23,390 nt of DNA from a virus: positions 1 to 23,390 of the IMG/VR virus record IMGVR_UViG_3300023170_000178; one strand, 5' to 3'. The translations under genes and the position numbers were made by a program. The notes beneath the pieces were generated by a model, which was not told the DNA's origin, ran no database searches, and was given only the letters and a program-made list of their open reading frames with translations. Shown here piece by piece: positions 14,598 to 22,609 of this stretch (the first letter of the stretch is position 1; each line of letters opens with the position of its first letter).

Positions 14598-14795
14598 TTA
14601 TTTATAAGTTTCTAACAACTCTCGTTCATCTTGATATGGCAGTTCCTTTTCAGTGAGCATGTCAAATCCTCTTTGGATCTCAGGATACAACCACACATCC
14701 CAATCTTTAGCACAATACTCCCAGTTCTGTGGAACTGTCACACATGGAATAACAACCATACCAATGAATGAGATGATGTAGTTGAGTGCTGTCAT
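14598..14795 (-). CDS. Small protein with N-terminal hydrophobic segment, unknown
   Basis: This 65-aa protein has residues 2-20 (TALNYIISFIGMVVIPCVT) forming one hydrophobic span, either a membrane anchor or an uncleaved signal. A polar, acidic tail rich in Trp, Tyr and Glu follows (WEYCAKDWDVWLYPEIQRG). No family is recognised. Its ATG overlaps the stop of the preceding gene by one base (TAATG). It is the last gene of the early-type run before the late block, and its stop region overlaps the late promoter at 14606-14599. Small single-span proteins of this kind are common in phage early regions as host-takeover factors, but no function can be read here. Confidence 0.7.
   Translation of the reverse strand: MTALNYIISFIGMVVIPCVTVPQNWEYCAKDWDVWLYPEIQRGFDMLTEKELPYQDERELLETYK
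14599..14606 (-). promoter_or_regulatory. T4-like late promoter TATAAATA at the head of the late block
   Basis: The minus strand reads CTTATAAATAACAATAACG. TATAAATA is an exact T4 late core, 31 nt upstream of the ATG at 14568, straddling the stop of the 65-aa gene. It is the best-placed promoter for the 356-, 303- and 757-aa genes, sigma factor and methyltransferase, which follow with gaps of 10 nt or less. Confidence 0.75.
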
Positions 14796-15007
14796 TAGTC
14801 TTGTTTGTAAAAACCAAGTGATTGAGCATCACGAAGACGCTCTTTGAGAACCAATCCAGTCAAAGATTCCATCACACTGAGGATGTCTTCTGCCTTTGCA
14901 CCTTCACCAAGTTCCTTTGCAACAAAGTGATACTTGGCGAAGAAGGTGTCAGCAACCTCCTTGTAATCTTCAACTGTTACTGGTTTATCCTTCTTGTCCT
15001 TCGGCAT
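14795..15007 (-). CDS. Small acidic-helical protein, unknown function
   Basis: This 70-aa protein starts MPKDKKDKPVTVEDYKEVAD. An in-frame ATG at 15061 would add 18 residues, but I chose 15007 because AAGGAGGAG lies 7 nt before it and because the longer form would overlap the upstream gene by 77 nt instead of 23. The body is predicted helical (DILSVMESLTGLVLKERLRD). There are no recognised motifs, no cysteines and no membrane segment. The gene is part of a tight string of four small genes between mazG and the late block. Confidence 0.72.
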   Translation of the reverse strand: MPKDKKDKPVTVEDYKEVADTFFAKYHFVAKELGEGAKAEDILSVMESLTGLVLKERLRDAQSLGFYKQD

Positions 15008-15206
15008 CAGTCTCCTCCTTAAGTTCTTCCAAGGCTTTCTCAATGCCATCATCCAGTTCACCGATCACCTTACGGATGTCCACGATGCGCTCAGGAGTGC
15101 AGGTGGGATCATAGGTGTAATCCTTCTGTGACTCAAACAGGACTTGTCGAACTGCTGCTGCAGAACGAACGTCCATCGTTGACACCACAACAACTTCTTT
15201 ACTCAT
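14985..15206 (-). CDS. Small acidic protein, unknown function
   Basis: This 73-aa protein begins with a hydrophobic strand (MSKEVVVVSTMDVRSAAAVR), followed by a polar middle (DYTYDPTCTPERIVDIRKV) and a very acidic C-terminal helix (GELDDGIEKALEELKEETD). I do not recognise it. The ATG overlaps the stop of the 76-aa gene by 4 nt (ATGA), and the 3' end overlaps the next gene by 23 nt, where its tail contains the AAGGAGG ribosome site of that gene. Translation of the two is therefore likely linked. Confidence 0.72.
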   Translation of the reverse strand: MSKEVVVVSTMDVRSAAAVRQVLFESQKDYTYDPTCTPERIVDIRKVIGELDDGIEKALEELKEETDAEGQEG

Positions 15207-17463: not shown

Positions 17464-18472
17464 CAATGCTTGATCCGTAAGAGAATTGTTCTTGTGCTAT
17501 TCCATCCAACTTTTCCATCACTTCAGGAGTAAAGTACTCCTCAGGTTCTTTGAGAATTTGCTTGGCATAGACTTTCTTACCATTAATTTCATATCGTCCT
17601 GCGACATTCTTCCAAAGTCCACCGAGTTCACCGAGTTCAAGAAGACCATAATAACGATCGAGACCACGCTCATCATAATAAAGACGGACTTCAACATCTT
17701 TGTTCTCCTTACTTAGACGCGACTTAGCAGTCTTAGCTTTGATAATGTTTCCGATAACTTCTTTACCATCCTTTTCTTTCTTTTTTCCGAGATGGATGAT
17801 TGTACTTGCTGCATACTTGAGGCCGCTGCCTCCCCCCATTTCCTTAGTTGGAATGTAAGCTCCGATAACGTCATAGGTGTGATTGGTTACGATCATTGGA
17901 ATGTTTGCTTGACCCAACTTCAGAGTGAGCATTCTGAAGGCACCTTTGACCAGTTGGGATTTGGTCATGTCTCGGACTTGTTTGTCGTTGAGCGCGTCAG
18001 TAATCTCTTTCTCTGTGGAAAGCATTCCTAACGAGTCTAATACAAACATGCACGGTTTGCGGGAATCTACTGGTTTCTTTTGGTATAGATCCACTGCCTT
18101 GAGTGCTTTGCTCCGAAACTCCTCAATGGTAACGACGTTAATAACAACAACGCGATCTAAGTCAATGCCCCGAGATTCAAGTAGGGATTTGTTAACGGCA
18201 GCCTCTGTATCAAAGTAAAGACAGTAACCATCAGGATTAGAATCCAGAAAGTTTTTAACAACAGCGAGAGAGAAAAAAGTCTTTCCAGTAGAAGACTCAC
18301 CAGCAATAGCAGTAATCTTATTCCCAGATACACCACCAAATATGCTACCTGAAACCAGTGCGTTAAAAATGTAACTACCCGTGTCAACATAAGTTTCAGT
18401 CTCGTCGATGTCTGAAGCGAGTTGGGTGTACTCGCCACCAATCTCTTTTACGATGTCTTTAAGGAAATCCAT
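17456..18472 (-). CDS. uvsX: Recombinase UvsX (RecA/Rad51 family)
   Basis: UvsX forms filaments on ssDNA and drives strand exchange, recombination-dependent replication and repair. The protein is 338 aa, shorter than T4 UvsX (about 390 aa) but usual for cyanophages. Walker A is AGESSTGKTFF (58-67), the catalytic glutamate is in YFDTEAAV (E90), and Walker B is CMFVLDSLGML (141-151). The L1/L2 region includes NHTYDVIGAYIP and KEMGGGSGLKYAAST (about 197-224). The ATG shares one base with the polymerase stop, so both are translated from one mRNA. UvsY is not in the window. Confidence 0.95.
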   Translation of the reverse strand: MDFLKDIVKEIGGEYTQLASDIDETETYVDTGSYIFNALVSGSIFGGVSGNKITAIAGESSTGKTFFSLAVVKNFLDSNPDGYCLYFDTEAAVNKSLLESRGIDLDRVVVINVVTIEEFRSKALKAVDLYQKKPVDSRKPCMFVLDSLGMLSTEKEITDALNDKQVRDMTKSQLVKGAFRMLTLKLGQANIPMIVTNHTYDVIGAYIPTKEMGGGSGLKYAASTIIHLGKKKEKDGKEVIGNIIKAKTAKSRLSKENKDVEVRLYYDERGLDRYYGLLELGELGGLWKNVAGRYEINGKKVYAKQILKEPEEYFTPEVMEKLDGIAQEQFSYGSSIDG

Positions 18473-21009
18473 TATCCAAAAAATGATTCAAGGTTTACCG
18501 TTTTCTCAACATTCCAATTGATAGCATCCAGAATGACTTTCACAGGTTCCAAGAATGCCTTGTTGAATTGTACATCATAGTCGATGTATTGTTGAAGATT
18601 CAATTCATGGGGAAAGTCAGTCTGGAATGAAATGACATTCTCACCCAGCGGGTTTGGTTTCTTCAGATGAACAAACTTGATTTTGTCTCCGTTGTTGATC
18701 ATTGAATATTTGTTCTCCAAACCTGCCTTGCGGACATAATGATTGTGGAGAAGCGCACCCCTGACGTGCATGGGACAACCCTTACCATAAATGGTTTGAG
18801 CGTTCTTATGTTTATTTACATCAGACACAGAGCGTGGGAAAGCAATCTCTTCCACGGGCATCTTCTTAAACTTGATGCGTGCCTGCTCGATGTACTCAAT
18901 CACGTCATCCTCAGATGCACTCATCATCAACTTCAGTGCATCTTTAATCATGGTGCGACAGGGAGCAGGAGTGGATGATTTCACTGCCTCAATGCCCATG
19001 ATCTTCAGTTTGGGTTCCTCATAACGAACACCCTCACTGTCCCAGACATTCAAGATGTAACGCTTCTTCGCTGTCCAGATGCCACGGTCTGCGATGTTCT
19101 CTCGCTTCATCTGCATCTTCTGATCATAAGCATTGACATAAGATGCGAGTTGGTTGTAACACTTATCGATGTAAGGTTCCAACTGATCTTCACAGATCTG
19201 GTTGATCTTGGTCACAGTCTGTTCCTTATCTCCCTCAAACTTGGCAAGGAACTTATCGACGACGGGACCAAAGTTGATGTAAATGGAGTCAGTGTCAGAT
19301 GCGATCACATAATCAATGTCTTCAGTCTTGAGAATGTTATTCAAAAACTTGTTCATCTTCCCTTCGATCCAACGAATGGAAGTCTGACCAGACAGAGTGA
19401 TTGCCTCAGCGTTGGCAAGTTTAAAGTAACGGAAGTAAGCATTACCAATGGCACCATAACAACTGTTCAAACAGATCTTACGAACCATCTGGAAGTTGTG
19501 GAACTTGGCAATGTCTTTGACTGTCTGTTCCTTCTGCTTCATCAGAACTGGATCTTTGTTCGTCTTGATCTTTGCTTCGATGTCAACCAACTTCTGCTTA
19601 CACCTCAGCATTTCTTTCTTGAATGCTTTGCGTTCAGCATACATCTTCTCCATCAACTCAGGCATAAAACCCTTAACATCCTTACGGAACATCGCACCAT
19701 TGGCACACACAGCATAATCACTGTACATCTCGAAGGTCAGTTCCTCATTCAAAATCTTATCCACTGTGACTGATGGGTGTCTGTCGTCCACCAGAGTCTC
19801 AGGAGAGATGTTGTACTGCATCATCAAGTGAGGATACAGAGAGTTCAAGTCAAAGGACACAACCCAGTCATATACACCAGGTCTGGGTTCTTTCACATAA
19901 GCACCAGCGAACTTTTCGTCCTTGTCACTCCTGTCCTTCGGAGGAACGACGATGTTCTTTTTCTTCAAGTAATTGTAAATGATGGTGTCCCACAGACGAA
20001 CCTGGAACATTGGATCCACAAAGTTTACCTTTGCGTCATATGCCATCGTGATGACCAGTTCAATCAGACGAAGTTTATCCTCCAGTCTGTCAACCAGTTC
20101 CACGTCAACGATGTTGTAATCGACGAACTTCTTCCAGTCGTTGGTGTAAAAGTCTTTGAAGGTGTCGAACTCAGAGTGGTCCAACTTCTTCTGACCCAAC
20201 TCAACTTCAGCAATGTAATCCAATCGATAAGACTCACGATTGGTGTAGGTGAACTTCTTGTAAAGTTCCAGGTAATCCAAACCTGTGATGCCAGCAATCT
20301 CAAAGACGTTGTATGTGCGCCCAGAGATGGCAAGTTCGGAACCAGTCACACGTCCCCAGGGAGACAACATCCTCACCTTCTTAGGTCCCAACACACGGTC
20401 AATGCGACCACAGATGTAAGGGATGTCATACAGACGTGTGTTCCATCCAGTGACAACCTCTGGATAATTGTTAGACCACCAGAAGAGGAATGCGTTCAGC
20501 ATGTCCGCTTCCTCTGGATGATAATGATAAGTCACGTTATCCTGCTTCGGAGTGTAAGGATAACGACCCCAGGTGGTAATCTTCTTGGTTGCGTAATCTT
20601 GAATAGAGATGGTAAGCATCTCTTCATTACAGTGCTCTGGGTCAGGGAATCCCTGCTCAGACTTCACCTCAATGTCCATCGTGACGAGACCAATCTTCTG
20701 AATGTCAAACTTGATCTCATTCTCTGGATACTTCTCAGAGATGTACTGATAAATGAAACGTTCGTTGCCGTAGATTTTGAATCCTTCTACGTCCTCATAC
20801 TTGCGAAAGAATTCACGGCAATCTCGGATGTTGCCAGGTTGAATGGGTTCGACGTGCTCACCTTCCAGGGTCTTATATTTCGTTTCCGCTTTAGATTTGA
20901 CGAACAGGGTGGGATAAAACTCCTCCCTGAACATCACCTTCTGTCCGTTTTCATAACCCCTGACCAACACGTCATTGCCGAGAACTTGAATGTTGGTGTA
21001 AAATCTCAC
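18472..21009 (-). CDS. gp43: DNA polymerase, family B, T4 gp43-type
   Basis: This 845-aa replicative polymerase with proofreading exonuclease is somewhat shorter than T4 gp43 (898 aa). Exonuclease motifs are Exo I VTMDIEVKSEQ (D112, E114), Exo II TGWNTRLYDIPYI (D195), and Exo III VDYNIVDVELVD (about 297-307). Polymerase motifs are A SFDLNSLYPHL (385-395), B KICLNSCYGAIGN (511-523), and C IASDTDSIYIN (569-579) with the catalytic DTD. No intein or split is seen. The start is GTG, and GTGA overlaps the previous stop by 4 nt with GAGGA about 9 nt upstream. The non-ATG start and coupling could lower expression relative to neighbours. The end overlaps the UvsX start by one base. Confidence 0.97.
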   Translation of the reverse strand: MRFYTNIQVLGNDVLVRGYENGQKVMFREEFYPTLFVKSKAETKYKTLEGEHVEPIQPGNIRDCREFFRKYEDVEGFKIYGNERFIYQYISEKYPENEIKFDIQKIGLVTMDIEVKSEQGFPDPEHCNEEMLTISIQDYATKKITTWGRYPYTPKQDNVTYHYHPEEADMLNAFLFWWSNNYPEVVTGWNTRLYDIPYICGRIDRVLGPKKVRMLSPWGRVTGSELAISGRTYNVFEIAGITGLDYLELYKKFTYTNRESYRLDYIAEVELGQKKLDHSEFDTFKDFYTNDWKKFVDYNIVDVELVDRLEDKLRLIELVITMAYDAKVNFVDPMFQVRLWDTIIYNYLKKKNIVVPPKDRSDKDEKFAGAYVKEPRPGVYDWVVSFDLNSLYPHLMMQYNISPETLVDDRHPSVTVDKILNEELTFEMYSDYAVCANGAMFRKDVKGFMPELMEKMYAERKAFKKEMLRCKQKLVDIEAKIKTNKDPVLMKQKEQTVKDIAKFHNFQMVRKICLNSCYGAIGNAYFRYFKLANAEAITLSGQTSIRWIEGKMNKFLNNILKTEDIDYVIASDTDSIYINFGPVVDKFLAKFEGDKEQTVTKINQICEDQLEPYIDKCYNQLASYVNAYDQKMQMKRENIADRGIWTAKKRYILNVWDSEGVRYEEPKLKIMGIEAVKSSTPAPCRTMIKDALKLMMSASEDDVIEYIEQARIKFKKMPVEEIAFPRSVSDVNKHKNAQTIYGKGCPMHVRGALLHNHYVRKAGLENKYSMINNGDKIKFVHLKKPNPLGENVISFQTDFPHELNLQQYIDYDVQFNKAFLEPVKVILDAINWNVEKTVNLESFFG

Positions 21010-21257
21010 TTCAGGAGTTCCTCATATTTGTCTTTCAGTTTACCAGTGGGGTCTGCCAGTGTCAAGATCTTATCAGAATGAATCATAAATGTGTTCTGAT
21101 TGGTAATGTTTACCAACCAGGGAATCAGATTCCCATCCTCTGTCAGAACAAATGGTTCAGTCAGTTTACAATCTGGCGACCCAAGTTCAGCAGAGACCTC
21201 ATCAATCTGGGTCAACAACGTCAGATTCGACAACACCAGAATCTTCAGATTTTCCAT
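21006..21257 (-). CDS. Small Sm-like fold protein, second of a tandem pair
   Basis: This is an 83-aa protein. Strands are suggested by LKILVLSNLTLLTQIDEVSA, a turn, then CKLTEPFVLTEDGNLIPWLV and KILTLADP, with a C-terminal helix KLKDKYEELL. Its second half aligns by eye with the neighbouring 111-aa protein: (T/I)P(Y/W), a Thr, then D, P, L and Y in the same order (IPWLVN.. / TPYVPL.., DKILTLADP / DWVVSIVEP, LKDKYEELL / LTELYQKSI). From memory, an Sm-like (LSm/Hfq) protein of putative cyanophage origin has been crystallised, and this pair resembles it. A role in RNA binding is possible. The N-terminal 56 nt lie inside the end of the upstream gene, and its stop is joined to the gp43 GTG. Confidence 0.8.
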   Translation of the reverse strand: MENLKILVLSNLTLLTQIDEVSAELGSPDCKLTEPFVLTEDGNLIPWLVNITNQNTFMIHSDKILTLADPTGKLKDKYEELLK

Positions 21258-21537
21258 ACTTCTTAATTGACTTTTGATACAGTTCTGTTAGTTGATCGAT
21301 GGGTTCAACAATGCTCACAACCCAATCTGCTGGGACGGGAATGGTTTTGTCTTTGCTGAGAGGAACATAAGGGGTGACTTTCATTTCAGTTTCGCCCGAA
21401 TCCCTCTTGAAAACTTTTGCGGTGCAGGGGTTATTTAAAAAATAACCAACGACTGCTTGAGCTTCACCGACAACCATCTCTGAGACATCAGCGACAACAT
21501 CTTCACCAGATTTCAATAAGACTAATTTGATGGTCAT
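21202..21537 (-). CDS. Small Sm-like fold protein, first of a tandem pair
   Basis: This is a 111-aa protein. Strand-like segments are IKLVLLKSGEDVVADVSEM, VVGYFLNNPCTAKVF, KVTPYVPLSKD and PADWVVSIVEP, followed by a helix LTELYQKSIKKYG and an acidic tail. The KSGEDVVADV...PDWVVSI..P pattern is, to my knowledge, a widespread cyanophage/T4-like small protein family with an Sm-like beta-barrel. Such proteins often form rings that bind RNA, so with RegA nearby a role in phage mRNA control is plausible, but it is inference. The tail region overlaps the next gene by 56 nt in another frame. It is the first gene after the terminator at 21569-21609, so it may have its own promoter. Ribosome site AGGAG is 13 nt upstream. 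Confidence 0.85.
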   Translation of the reverse strand: MTIKLVLLKSGEDVVADVSEMVVGEAQAVVGYFLNNPCTAKVFKRDSGETEMKVTPYVPLSKDKTIPVPADWVVSIVEPIDQLTELYQKSIKKYGKSEDSGVVESDVVDPD

Positions 21538-21558
21538 TTTTGATTTATCTCTCCTAGT

Positions 21559-21586
21559 ATATTAGCACAAAAAAGGGGGGACACAA
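21559..21586 (-). promoter_or_regulatory. Possible sigma-70-type promoter for the gp43/uvsX/gp41 operon
   Basis: The minus strand reads TTGTGT, 16 nt, TAATAT, just upstream of the AGGAG site of the 111-aa gene. The -35 element lies in the terminator stem. Only moderate matches, but a promoter is expected here because the terminator cuts off upstream transcription. Start mapping is needed. Confidence 0.35.
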
Positions 21587-21609
21587 CTGGATTTTGCCAG
21601 TTGCTCCCC
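21569..21609 (-). terminator. Strong intrinsic terminator after hsp20
   Basis: On the minus strand the RNA reads GGGGAGCAACTGG, loop CAAAAT, CCAGTTGTGTCCCC, then CCTTTTTT. Arms pair over 12 positions with a small bulge (G against CA). The GC-rich base and a run of six Us make a strong Rho-independent terminator. It separates the gp62/regA/hsp20 unit from the gp43 unit. Confidence 0.9.
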
Positions 21610-21629
21610 GCGCCGACGATATTCAGTTG

Positions 21630-21636
21630 TATTTAT
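21630..21636 (-). promoter_or_regulatory. Late-promoter-like ATAAATA just before the terminator
   Basis: The minus strand reads CCAATAAATACAACTG at the very end of hsp20, about 20 nt before the terminator hairpin. It has no gene directly behind it. It may be chance, or it may drive a short terminated RNA or readthrough into the gp43 operon late in infection. Confidence 0.3.
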
Positions 21637-22073
21637 TGGTCCTTACCAAACCACAAGAAACGTTTGTGATTCTCTGGAACGATACGAACCAAGGCCACTG
21701 CCAGAATCCCGTTTTCAAACTTCACTTCCTTGACTTCCACATCATCGGAAAGAGTCCAGGTGCGAGTGAAGGAACGAGCAGCGAGACCACGGTGGACATA
21801 TTCACGTTGGTCAGTGTCTGCTTTTGCTGCTTCGACAACGAGTTGACTGTTTTCAGTGTAAACCTTTACTTCGTCCTCTGCGAACCCTGCGAGGGCAAGT
21901 TCCAGACTGAAGGTGTTCTCATCCACCTTAACGAGGTTGTAAGGGGGATAGTTGACATCTTGCTGAATCGTGTTAAACGAATCAAAGAATTTGTCAAGAC
22001 CAATCGAGTAACGATCAATGTCCTTCAGGAAGGTGTTGATGTCACCAGAACGGTATCGTGCGAGGTTTCCCAT
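21633..22073 (-). CDS. hsp20: Small heat shock protein Hsp20 (alpha-crystallin domain)
   Basis: This 146-aa ATP-independent holdase is carried by nearly all T4-like marine cyanophages. An N-terminal extension (1-45) includes FLKDIDRYSIGLDKFFD. The alpha-crystallin domain runs at about 47-135: YNLVKVDENTFSLELALAGF, DEVKVYTENSQLVVEA, the loop REYVHRGLAARSFTRTWTL, and the conserved A/G-x-L motif FENGILAVALVRIVPE. The C-terminal IxI oligomerisation motif is not evident in the short end FLWFGKDQ. The ribosome site AAGGAG lies 7 nt from the ATG. It has a probable TATAAT promoter and a hairpin in its leader, and it is followed by a strong terminator. Its likely role is to protect phage or host proteins under infection stress or aid scaffold folding, but this is not proven. 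Confidence 0.95.
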   Translation of the reverse strand: MGNLARYRSGDINTFLKDIDRYSIGLDKFFDSFNTIQQDVNYPPYNLVKVDENTFSLELALAGFAEDEVKVYTENSQLVVEAAKADTDQREYVHRGLAARSFTRTWTLSDDVEVKEVKFENGILAVALVRIVPENHKRFLWFGKDQ

Positions 22074-22171: not shown

Positions 22172-22609
22172 TCAATTCTCTTCGGTTTTTACCTTACGAG
22201 CACCAATGTTATATTTCTGCTCCAGAGTCCACTCGTTCTTATCACGATAAGGGAGAACCTTGATCTGATTCAGTGGAGCAATGTCCATAATGCTGTCTTC
22301 CTTAACAACAGAAATCAGTCCCCAGTCAACCAAGAGACGGGTGATCCTGTTGCGGCGCTGCACATCATTAACTGTGATGTTAGCATACTTTCCATCAAGG
22401 GCAAACAGTTCCTTGAAGTGAACAATATAATACTTACCCTGTTTGTGCAGGATGTGACAGGACTGGTACAGCTTCTTTTCCTTGCGAGAAGCGACACCAA
22501 TTCTTGTCAGAGTCTCTCTTACCTTCAGGAAATCGTCAGGTTCATTTAATACCACCTCAATCATCTGGTCTTGCGACCAGTTTACTTGTGGCTCAATAGT
22601 TTGAGTCAT
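22172..22609 (-). CDS. regA: Translational repressor RegA
   Basis: RegA binds ribosome-binding sites of many early phage mRNAs and blocks their translation, tuning replisome protein levels. The protein is 145 aa. The core MIEVVLNEPDDFLKVRETLT, then YQSCHILHKQGKYYIVHFKE and LLVDWGLISVV, match T4 RegA closely (T4: MIEITLKKPEDFLKVKETLT). A 15-residue N-terminal extension precedes the T4 start point. I kept the ATG at 22609 because it overlaps the gp62 stop by 4 nt (ATGA) in coupled fashion; an internal ATG at 22564 is the alternative. Gene order gp62-regA matches T4 (44-62-regA-43), although here hsp20 and two Sm-like genes sit between regA and gp43. Confidence 0.96.
   Translation of the reverse strand: MTQTIEPQVNWSQDQMIEVVLNEPDDFLKVRETLTRIGVASRKEKKLYQSCHILHKQGKYYIVHFKELFALDGKYANITVNDVQRRNRITRLLVDWGLISVVKEDSIMDIAPLNQIKVLPYRDKNEWTLEQKYNIGARKVKTEEN

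Follow-up and report, generated by a model that had tools for sequence, protein, structure and literature searches.

Background and the A-B gene pair

Among the closest known relatives of the two proteins considered here is the Sm/LSm-like protein of structure 3BY7 (JCVI_PEP_1096686650277), a marine metagenome sequence that provides the five-fold half in the designed particle TIP60, for which its five-fold homo-assembly has been reported. Among other Sm-like proteins, Escherichia coli Hfq carries an acidic tail that limits nonspecific RNA binding (PMC8348266), the cyanobacterial Hfq keeps the fold, has a very low affinity for RNA and acts with PilB and EbsA (PMC10989914), and Rof is reported to act through binding to Rho (PMC11018626). 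Of 12 Prochlorococcus genomes, 10 lack Hfq (PMC2518516), so that host Hfq would be unreliable for a phage. The locus analysed here is a pair of overlapping genes, A and B, found directly upstream of the DNA polymerase gene gp43 in IMG/VR record IMGVR_UViG_3300023170_000178, the entire contig of which (23,390 nucleotides (nt), hereafter the window) comes from a T4-like cyanophage. Such phages rank among the sea's most abundant viruses, and A and B belong to their conserved replication cluster.

The reading preferred here, to which about an even chance is given, is that A and B are diverged copies of the 3BY7 family of Sm-like proteins that head a polymerase-UvsX-helicase gene run, form homomeric rings, are coupled to gp43 and serve as accessory factors in replication or recombination. 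The fold, the kinship, the A-B-gp43 order, the frame of the overlap and the excess acidity of the tail of A were computed, and from these we infer the rings, the coupling and the function. The features concerned are as follows.

21202..21537, minus strand: protein A, 111 amino acids; barrel at residues 1-79, C-terminal helix at 81-95 and a disordered acidic tail at about 96-111
21006..21257, minus strand: protein B, 83 amino acids; Sm-like barrel and C-terminal helix at 72-82
21202..21257, minus strand: 56-nt A/B overlap; the 17 final codons and TGA of A over the initial 18-19 codons of B
21006..21009, minus strand: GTGA, a 4-nt overlap of the B stop and the gp43 GTG start; possible translational coupling site
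18472..21009, minus strand: DNA polymerase gp43 (PF00136, phrog_262), downstream in the A-B gene run

Fold and kinship

An earlier note on this DNA had described two proteins of 111 and 83 amino acids with reading frames overlapping by 56 nt, and had aligned their second halves by eye. Both open reading frames (ORFs) are at the stated coordinates, on the minus strand and in different frames, and the overlap is exactly 56 nt long. A BLASTP comparison of the two sequences is not significant (E 0.16), so such an alignment is not provable from two sequences alone. Family alignments were made from metagenomic relatives (alignment A1 for A, 52 sequences; A2 for B, 53; A3 for a third family, C, 17) and their comparison by hhalign gave 97.2% (E 3e-11) for A-B, 98% (E 1.7e-13) for A-C and 85% (E 6e-6) for B-C, with the motif matches picked out in the earlier note (TPYVPL/IPWLVN, DWVVSIVEP/DKILTLADP and LTELYQKSI/LKDKYEELL) falling in the same register. 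Chance resemblance, which the BLASTP value would allow, is ruled out by the profiles and the structural models. In a tree based on few columns B forms one clade (100/99) and A does not form one side of a branch (2 changes), a shape that could result from an ancient tandem duplication after which B changed fast; the proposed origin of the pair by duplication is supported by both profiles and tree.

In the PDB, 3BY7 is matched by the profiles of all three families, at 9e-10 for A, 1.3e-7 for B and 6e-12 for C, as is TIP60, the particle derived from it. AlphaFold2 models of the monomers, with a predicted local distance difference test score (pLDDT) of 87 for A and 90 for B, also have 3BY7 as their best match by VIA (A: Z 14.5, root-mean-square deviation 0.9 Å over 82 residues; B: Z 14.0, 1.0 Å over 76 residues). 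Below 3BY7 and TIP60 nearly all the top Foldseek and VIA matches are Sm/LSm proteins, at Z 6-7.7, and the bent barrel of canonical Sm, LSm and Hfq proteins is present in both models. The Sm-like fold suggested for both proteins is thus borne out, the two predicted folds agreeing with one another and each containing the barrel. The fold shared with 3BY7 extends over the whole barrel and the C-terminal helix, and A has in common with E. coli Hfq both the barrel and an acidic disordered C-terminal tail (residues 98-106 of A are below pLDDT 50). A and B differ from Hfq and LSm proteins in having an acidic core and a helix that is C-terminal; no N-terminal helix precedes strand 1 in either model, each of which begins with a strand, at residues 3-8 in A and 4-8 in B, and neither the RG dipeptide of Sm2 nor the YKHA of Hfq occurs in the consensus of A (IPVxxDWVVTIVEP) or B (MIHSDKILTIxDP). 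The isoelectric point is about 4.5 in the A, B and C families, with mean net charges of -10, -6.4 and -5.2 respectively, and the core of A is also negative; RegA and gp62 from the same window are basic.

B, the orthologue of T4-GC 177, matches PF20198 (DUF6561) at 1.3e-29 (102 bits, above the cut-off) and phrog_483 at 7e-20. A, the orthologue of T4-GC 176, matches phrog_431 at 7.6e-28 and PF20198 at 8e-5, where its 23 bits fall below the Pfam cut-off of 27, and it is joined to the DUF6561/3BY7 family by cross-hits among phrog_431, 527 and 483 and by its hhalign matches to B and C. Both proteins are members of this family. The entries for PF20198, PHROG 431 and 483 and T4-GC 176 and 177 carry neither a function nor an Sm-like label, no function for A or B is given in Pfam, PHROGs or GenBank entries, and none of the papers searched mentions DUF6561. 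T4-GC 174 and 175, Syn9 gp170 and CPMG_00190 were considered as further members and are rejected by Pfam and PHROGs. That B is a spurious ORF is ruled out, as its conservation exceeds that of A and it occurs in some lineages without A next to it.

Two further paralogues were observed. C (phrog_527, about 95 amino acids) lies just after gp44, past the end of the window (L001:690-977, L006:12-299), and has a conserved C-terminal motif, TPSKKLIL, resembling a docking peptide. The fourth, T4-GC 139 (L165:2717-3130, L166:1872-2285), adjoins uvsW, belongs to PF16243 (Sm_like) and is annotated "methylamine utilization", a label that looks wrong; PHROG cross-hits and PDB matches place it in the same superfamily as A and B, from which it differs in genomic place and in its greater length (about 137 amino acids). 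Five complete genomes searched each hold three or four family members. The A-B pair is already standard in this virus family and the gain is mainly a fold and a kinship for proteins of "unknown function"; tying A, B, C and the gene beside uvsW into one Sm-like family turns several unknowns into one testable question, namely the role of a family of acidic Sm-like rings beside phage replication genes.

Gene order and distribution

On the minus strand of the window the order is gp62, RegA, Hsp20, A, B and gp43, with UvsX and then the gp41 helicase 3' of gp43, the last two being named from their sequence and from the gene order of annotated relatives. The earlier note had placed the pair directly upstream of the polymerase and downstream of RegA; the first position stands, but the Hsp20 gene and an intrinsic terminator intervene on the RegA side.

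21633..22073, minus strand: small heat-shock protein of the Hsp20 family; lies between RegA and A
22172..22609, minus strand: RegA translational repressor

The order A-B-gp43 is standard in T4-like cyanophages. All seven complete genomes examined have it (P-SSM2, S-SM2, S-PM2, S-SCSM2R, MED4-213, Syn9 and P-SSM4), with an extra gene, CPMG_00190, between the A-like genes and B in MED4-213, and the relatives are annotated as T4-GC 176 and 177 (417 for the B of P-SSM4) or, in one recent record, as DUF6561. GenBank phage records matching A number 207 and those matching B 108, and every one bears the name of a Synechococcus, Prochlorococcus, cyanophage or marine virus. An A identical to that of the window occurs in locus L001, and an identical B in L081 on the same contig. 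A cellular origin of A was considered and rejected: a genome scan gave only two contigs from metagenome-assembled genomes, both of which carry the hairpin element described below and look like phage DNA. These contigs (L167 and L168), labelled Thermoplasmata and Paceibacterota, are probably misbinned phage DNA.

Lineages without the pair bear on whether A and B work together. The earlier note had suggested a hetero-oligomeric ring and post-transcriptional control, and in its full form this would mean one RNA-binding Sm-like ring, built of both proteins and controlling messenger RNAs of the phage or the host in concert with RegA. Mixed rings of paralogues do exist, eukaryotic LSm1-7 being a precedent, both A and B have the fold, and the genes are tandem, overlapping and co-inherited in most genomes. 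Nevertheless, eleven metagenomic contigs carry B with no A alongside, although such contigs are fragments and A could lie elsewhere in the genome; a profile search of them found only B and, on some, one further match of about 100 amino acids. In the two for which ORFs were listed, L093 and L112, Hsp20 precedes B and A is absent, with a short unrelated ORF in between in L112. The Pelagibacter phage Mosig has a single copy at this place, in the order RegA, a RimK/glutathione-synthetase-like gene, one Sm-like gene, ferredoxin and gp43, and 3BY7 itself is a five-fold homomer. These three observations make an obligate A+B ring unlikely. The Hsp20 gene and terminator also separate the pair from RegA, the Sm2 RG is absent and all families are acidic, and a mixed RNA-binding ring is regarded as improbable. 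Post-transcriptional control as such is not supported, given the acidity of all the families, the missing RG and gene neighbours drawn mostly from replication and recombination, not from RNA regulation.

Among phage genes, the Sm-like gene of Mosig (L176:4992-5306) is the one closest to 3BY7 (44%), which is nearer to it and to the C family than to A and B (about 20-24%); unlike A and B, the Mosig gene stands outside any tandem pair. By the title of its structure paper 3BY7 is of cyanophage origin. A 2008 study found a 3BY7 homologue on marine contigs carrying phage RimK genes (PMC2530865), and together with the Mosig match this indicates that the source was probably a pelagiphage like Mosig rather than a cyanophage.

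The overlap and the acidic tail

In keeping with the earlier note, which put the acidic tail of A over the first strand of B in another frame, the last 17 residues of A (GKSEDSGVVESDVVDPD) and its stop are encoded there. Across 98 distinct A-B protein pairs the overlap is 26-113 nt in 94 and 4-11 nt in the other four, and 96 of the 98 keep the same relative frame, so that the overlap exceeds chance. It is ancestral in the lineage and not a special device of the window phage.

It might be argued that the overlap has no regulatory role and is ordinary phage gene packing: the stop of A would have slipped into B, leaving a tail dictated by the codons of B. Genes are tightly packed in the window, where a second long overlap may exist. 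In the window and most of the longer overlaps the TGA of A lies within the conserved Q-I-[DE] codons of B, and for the window sequence the likelihood of a TGA there from codon choice alone is 0.69. In close relatives changes at codon positions 1 and 2 of B are not fewer within the overlap than outside it, so the overlap is not unusually frozen relative to the remainder of B. Set against this are the preservation of the frame and the outcome of redrawing B with synonymous codons, the B protein being kept, which interrupts the A frame in 73% of cases. The net negative charge of the tail, moreover, has a native mean of 4.1 against 1.4 in the redraws and is above expectation in 54 of 59 pairs, and L054 has a long acidic A tail although its overlap is just 4 nt. 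Both points suggest that the acidity of the tail has been selected in its own right, and the recoding makes a pure by-product of the frame unlikely, though the pairs have common ancestry. Packing without regulation is held to be less likely than not. The possible second long same-strand overlap, of 77 nt, is between two small ORFs in the region 14795-15206, one at 14985-15206 and the other, read from a GTG start, at 14795-15061.

Possible functions of the pair

On the preferred reading, A and B would each build a small ring, probably five-membered and mostly homomeric, as in 3BY7. Judged from gene layout, they may be synthesised along with the polymerase by stop-start coupled translation, in which a ribosome finishing A would re-enter B through the 56-nt overlap. 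The rings would then serve phage DNA replication or recombination as accessory factors, and the disordered tail of A might be an auto-inhibitory or partner-docking arm by analogy with the acidic tails of Hfq and single-strand-binding proteins. Other members of the family also adjoin replication genes, C being beside gp44 (in L001) and T4-GC 139 beside uvsW.

Several points weigh against this reading. The overall acidity of A and B (isoelectric point about 4.5) is unusual for nucleic-acid binding, and the family net charges appear unfavourable for RNA binding at the ring face, though they are not decisive. That A and B lie among replication genes may be owed to operon history alone. The A-B-gp43 coupling is read from gene layout, and the P of 1e-10 obtained for tail acidity is not to be taken literally, related phages having been treated as independent.

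The same acidity, common to all three families, would suit Sm-like adaptors that bind proteins and not nucleic acids and that tether proteins of the host or the phage to the replication machinery. Such a role has parallels in the cyanobacterial Hfq, with its very low RNA affinity and its partners PilB and EbsA (PMC10989914), and in Rof, an Sm-like protein reported to work by binding Rho (PMC11018626). An acidic protein may, however, still have a local basic patch, and nucleic-acid binding is general among Sm-like rings; this explanation is considered unlikely.

A conserved hairpin element and promoter upstream of A

The gap between Hsp20 and A contains a conserved, unannotated hairpin element that, where it is fused to an early-type promoter, is more novel than the A-B pair. 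Its parts in the window are as follows.

21630..21635, minus strand: TAAATA, late-promoter-like, overlapping the Hsp20 stop codon
21610..21622, minus strand: near-invariant block 5' of the hairpin, ATATCGTCGGCGC
21569..21609, minus strand: hairpin and T-run of an intrinsic terminator that follows Hsp20, GGGGAGCAACTGG CAAAAT CCAGTTGTGTCCCC CC TTTTTT; conserved and covarying
21556..21586, minus strand: position of the early (sigma70-type) promoter for the A-B-gp43 unit; a perfect TTGACA-N17-TATAAT in relatives but weak in the window, TTGTGT ... TATACT

The layout over 21569-21635 on the minus strand (TAAATA, about 7-9 nt, ATATCGTCGNCGC, hairpin, TTTTTT) is strongly conserved (alignment A4; L172, L173), and a similar stretch is found in 150 cyanophage records. 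TAAATA lies at most 30 nt upstream in 49 of 53 distinct copies of the element, and NATAAATA is a known cyanophage late promoter (PMC2984593). In an alignment of 41 sequences ATCGTCG is invariant, nine of 13 hairpin pairs have changes on both sides, and covariation is 0.277 compared with 0.132 when shuffled and at most 0.154 when slid. No Rfam family matches the element at the gathering score; weak matches to a microRNA family and a long non-coding RNA family were judged to be chance. Genomes that have the full motif have a single copy, at a position that differs between phages. In many relatives it immediately precedes A; in others it lies elsewhere, and the copies of S-PM2 and Syn9 are far removed from A and B, in the neighbourhood of hli and other genes, and have no sigma70-type promoter.

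In 17 of the 53 copies the element runs on into a perfect (12/12) TTGACA, a spacer of 16 to 18 nt and TATAAT, so arranged that terminator and promoter are fused, the -35 lying in the 3' arm of the hairpin and the T-run in the spacer before TATAAT (for example L018, L034, L045 and L159). A promoter score of at least 10 of 12 is reached by 43 of 53 elements, compared with 18 of 1060 shuffled sequences; in the window the -35 is degraded, and the identical copy in L001 scores 8 of 12. As far as predicted transcripts go, this suggests that a late unit ends, or a late small RNA of 60-70 nt is made, where the early A-B-gp43 unit starts.

The element is thus a concrete candidate for a late small RNA of 60-70 nt, running from about ATATCGTCG to the T-run, or else for a dedicated terminator. 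It is conceivable, if highly improbable, that A or B or both form a phage Sm-like ring that binds the U-tail of this putative RNA; if so, the phage would have its own Hfq-like system in hosts whose Hfq is absent or does not bind RNA.

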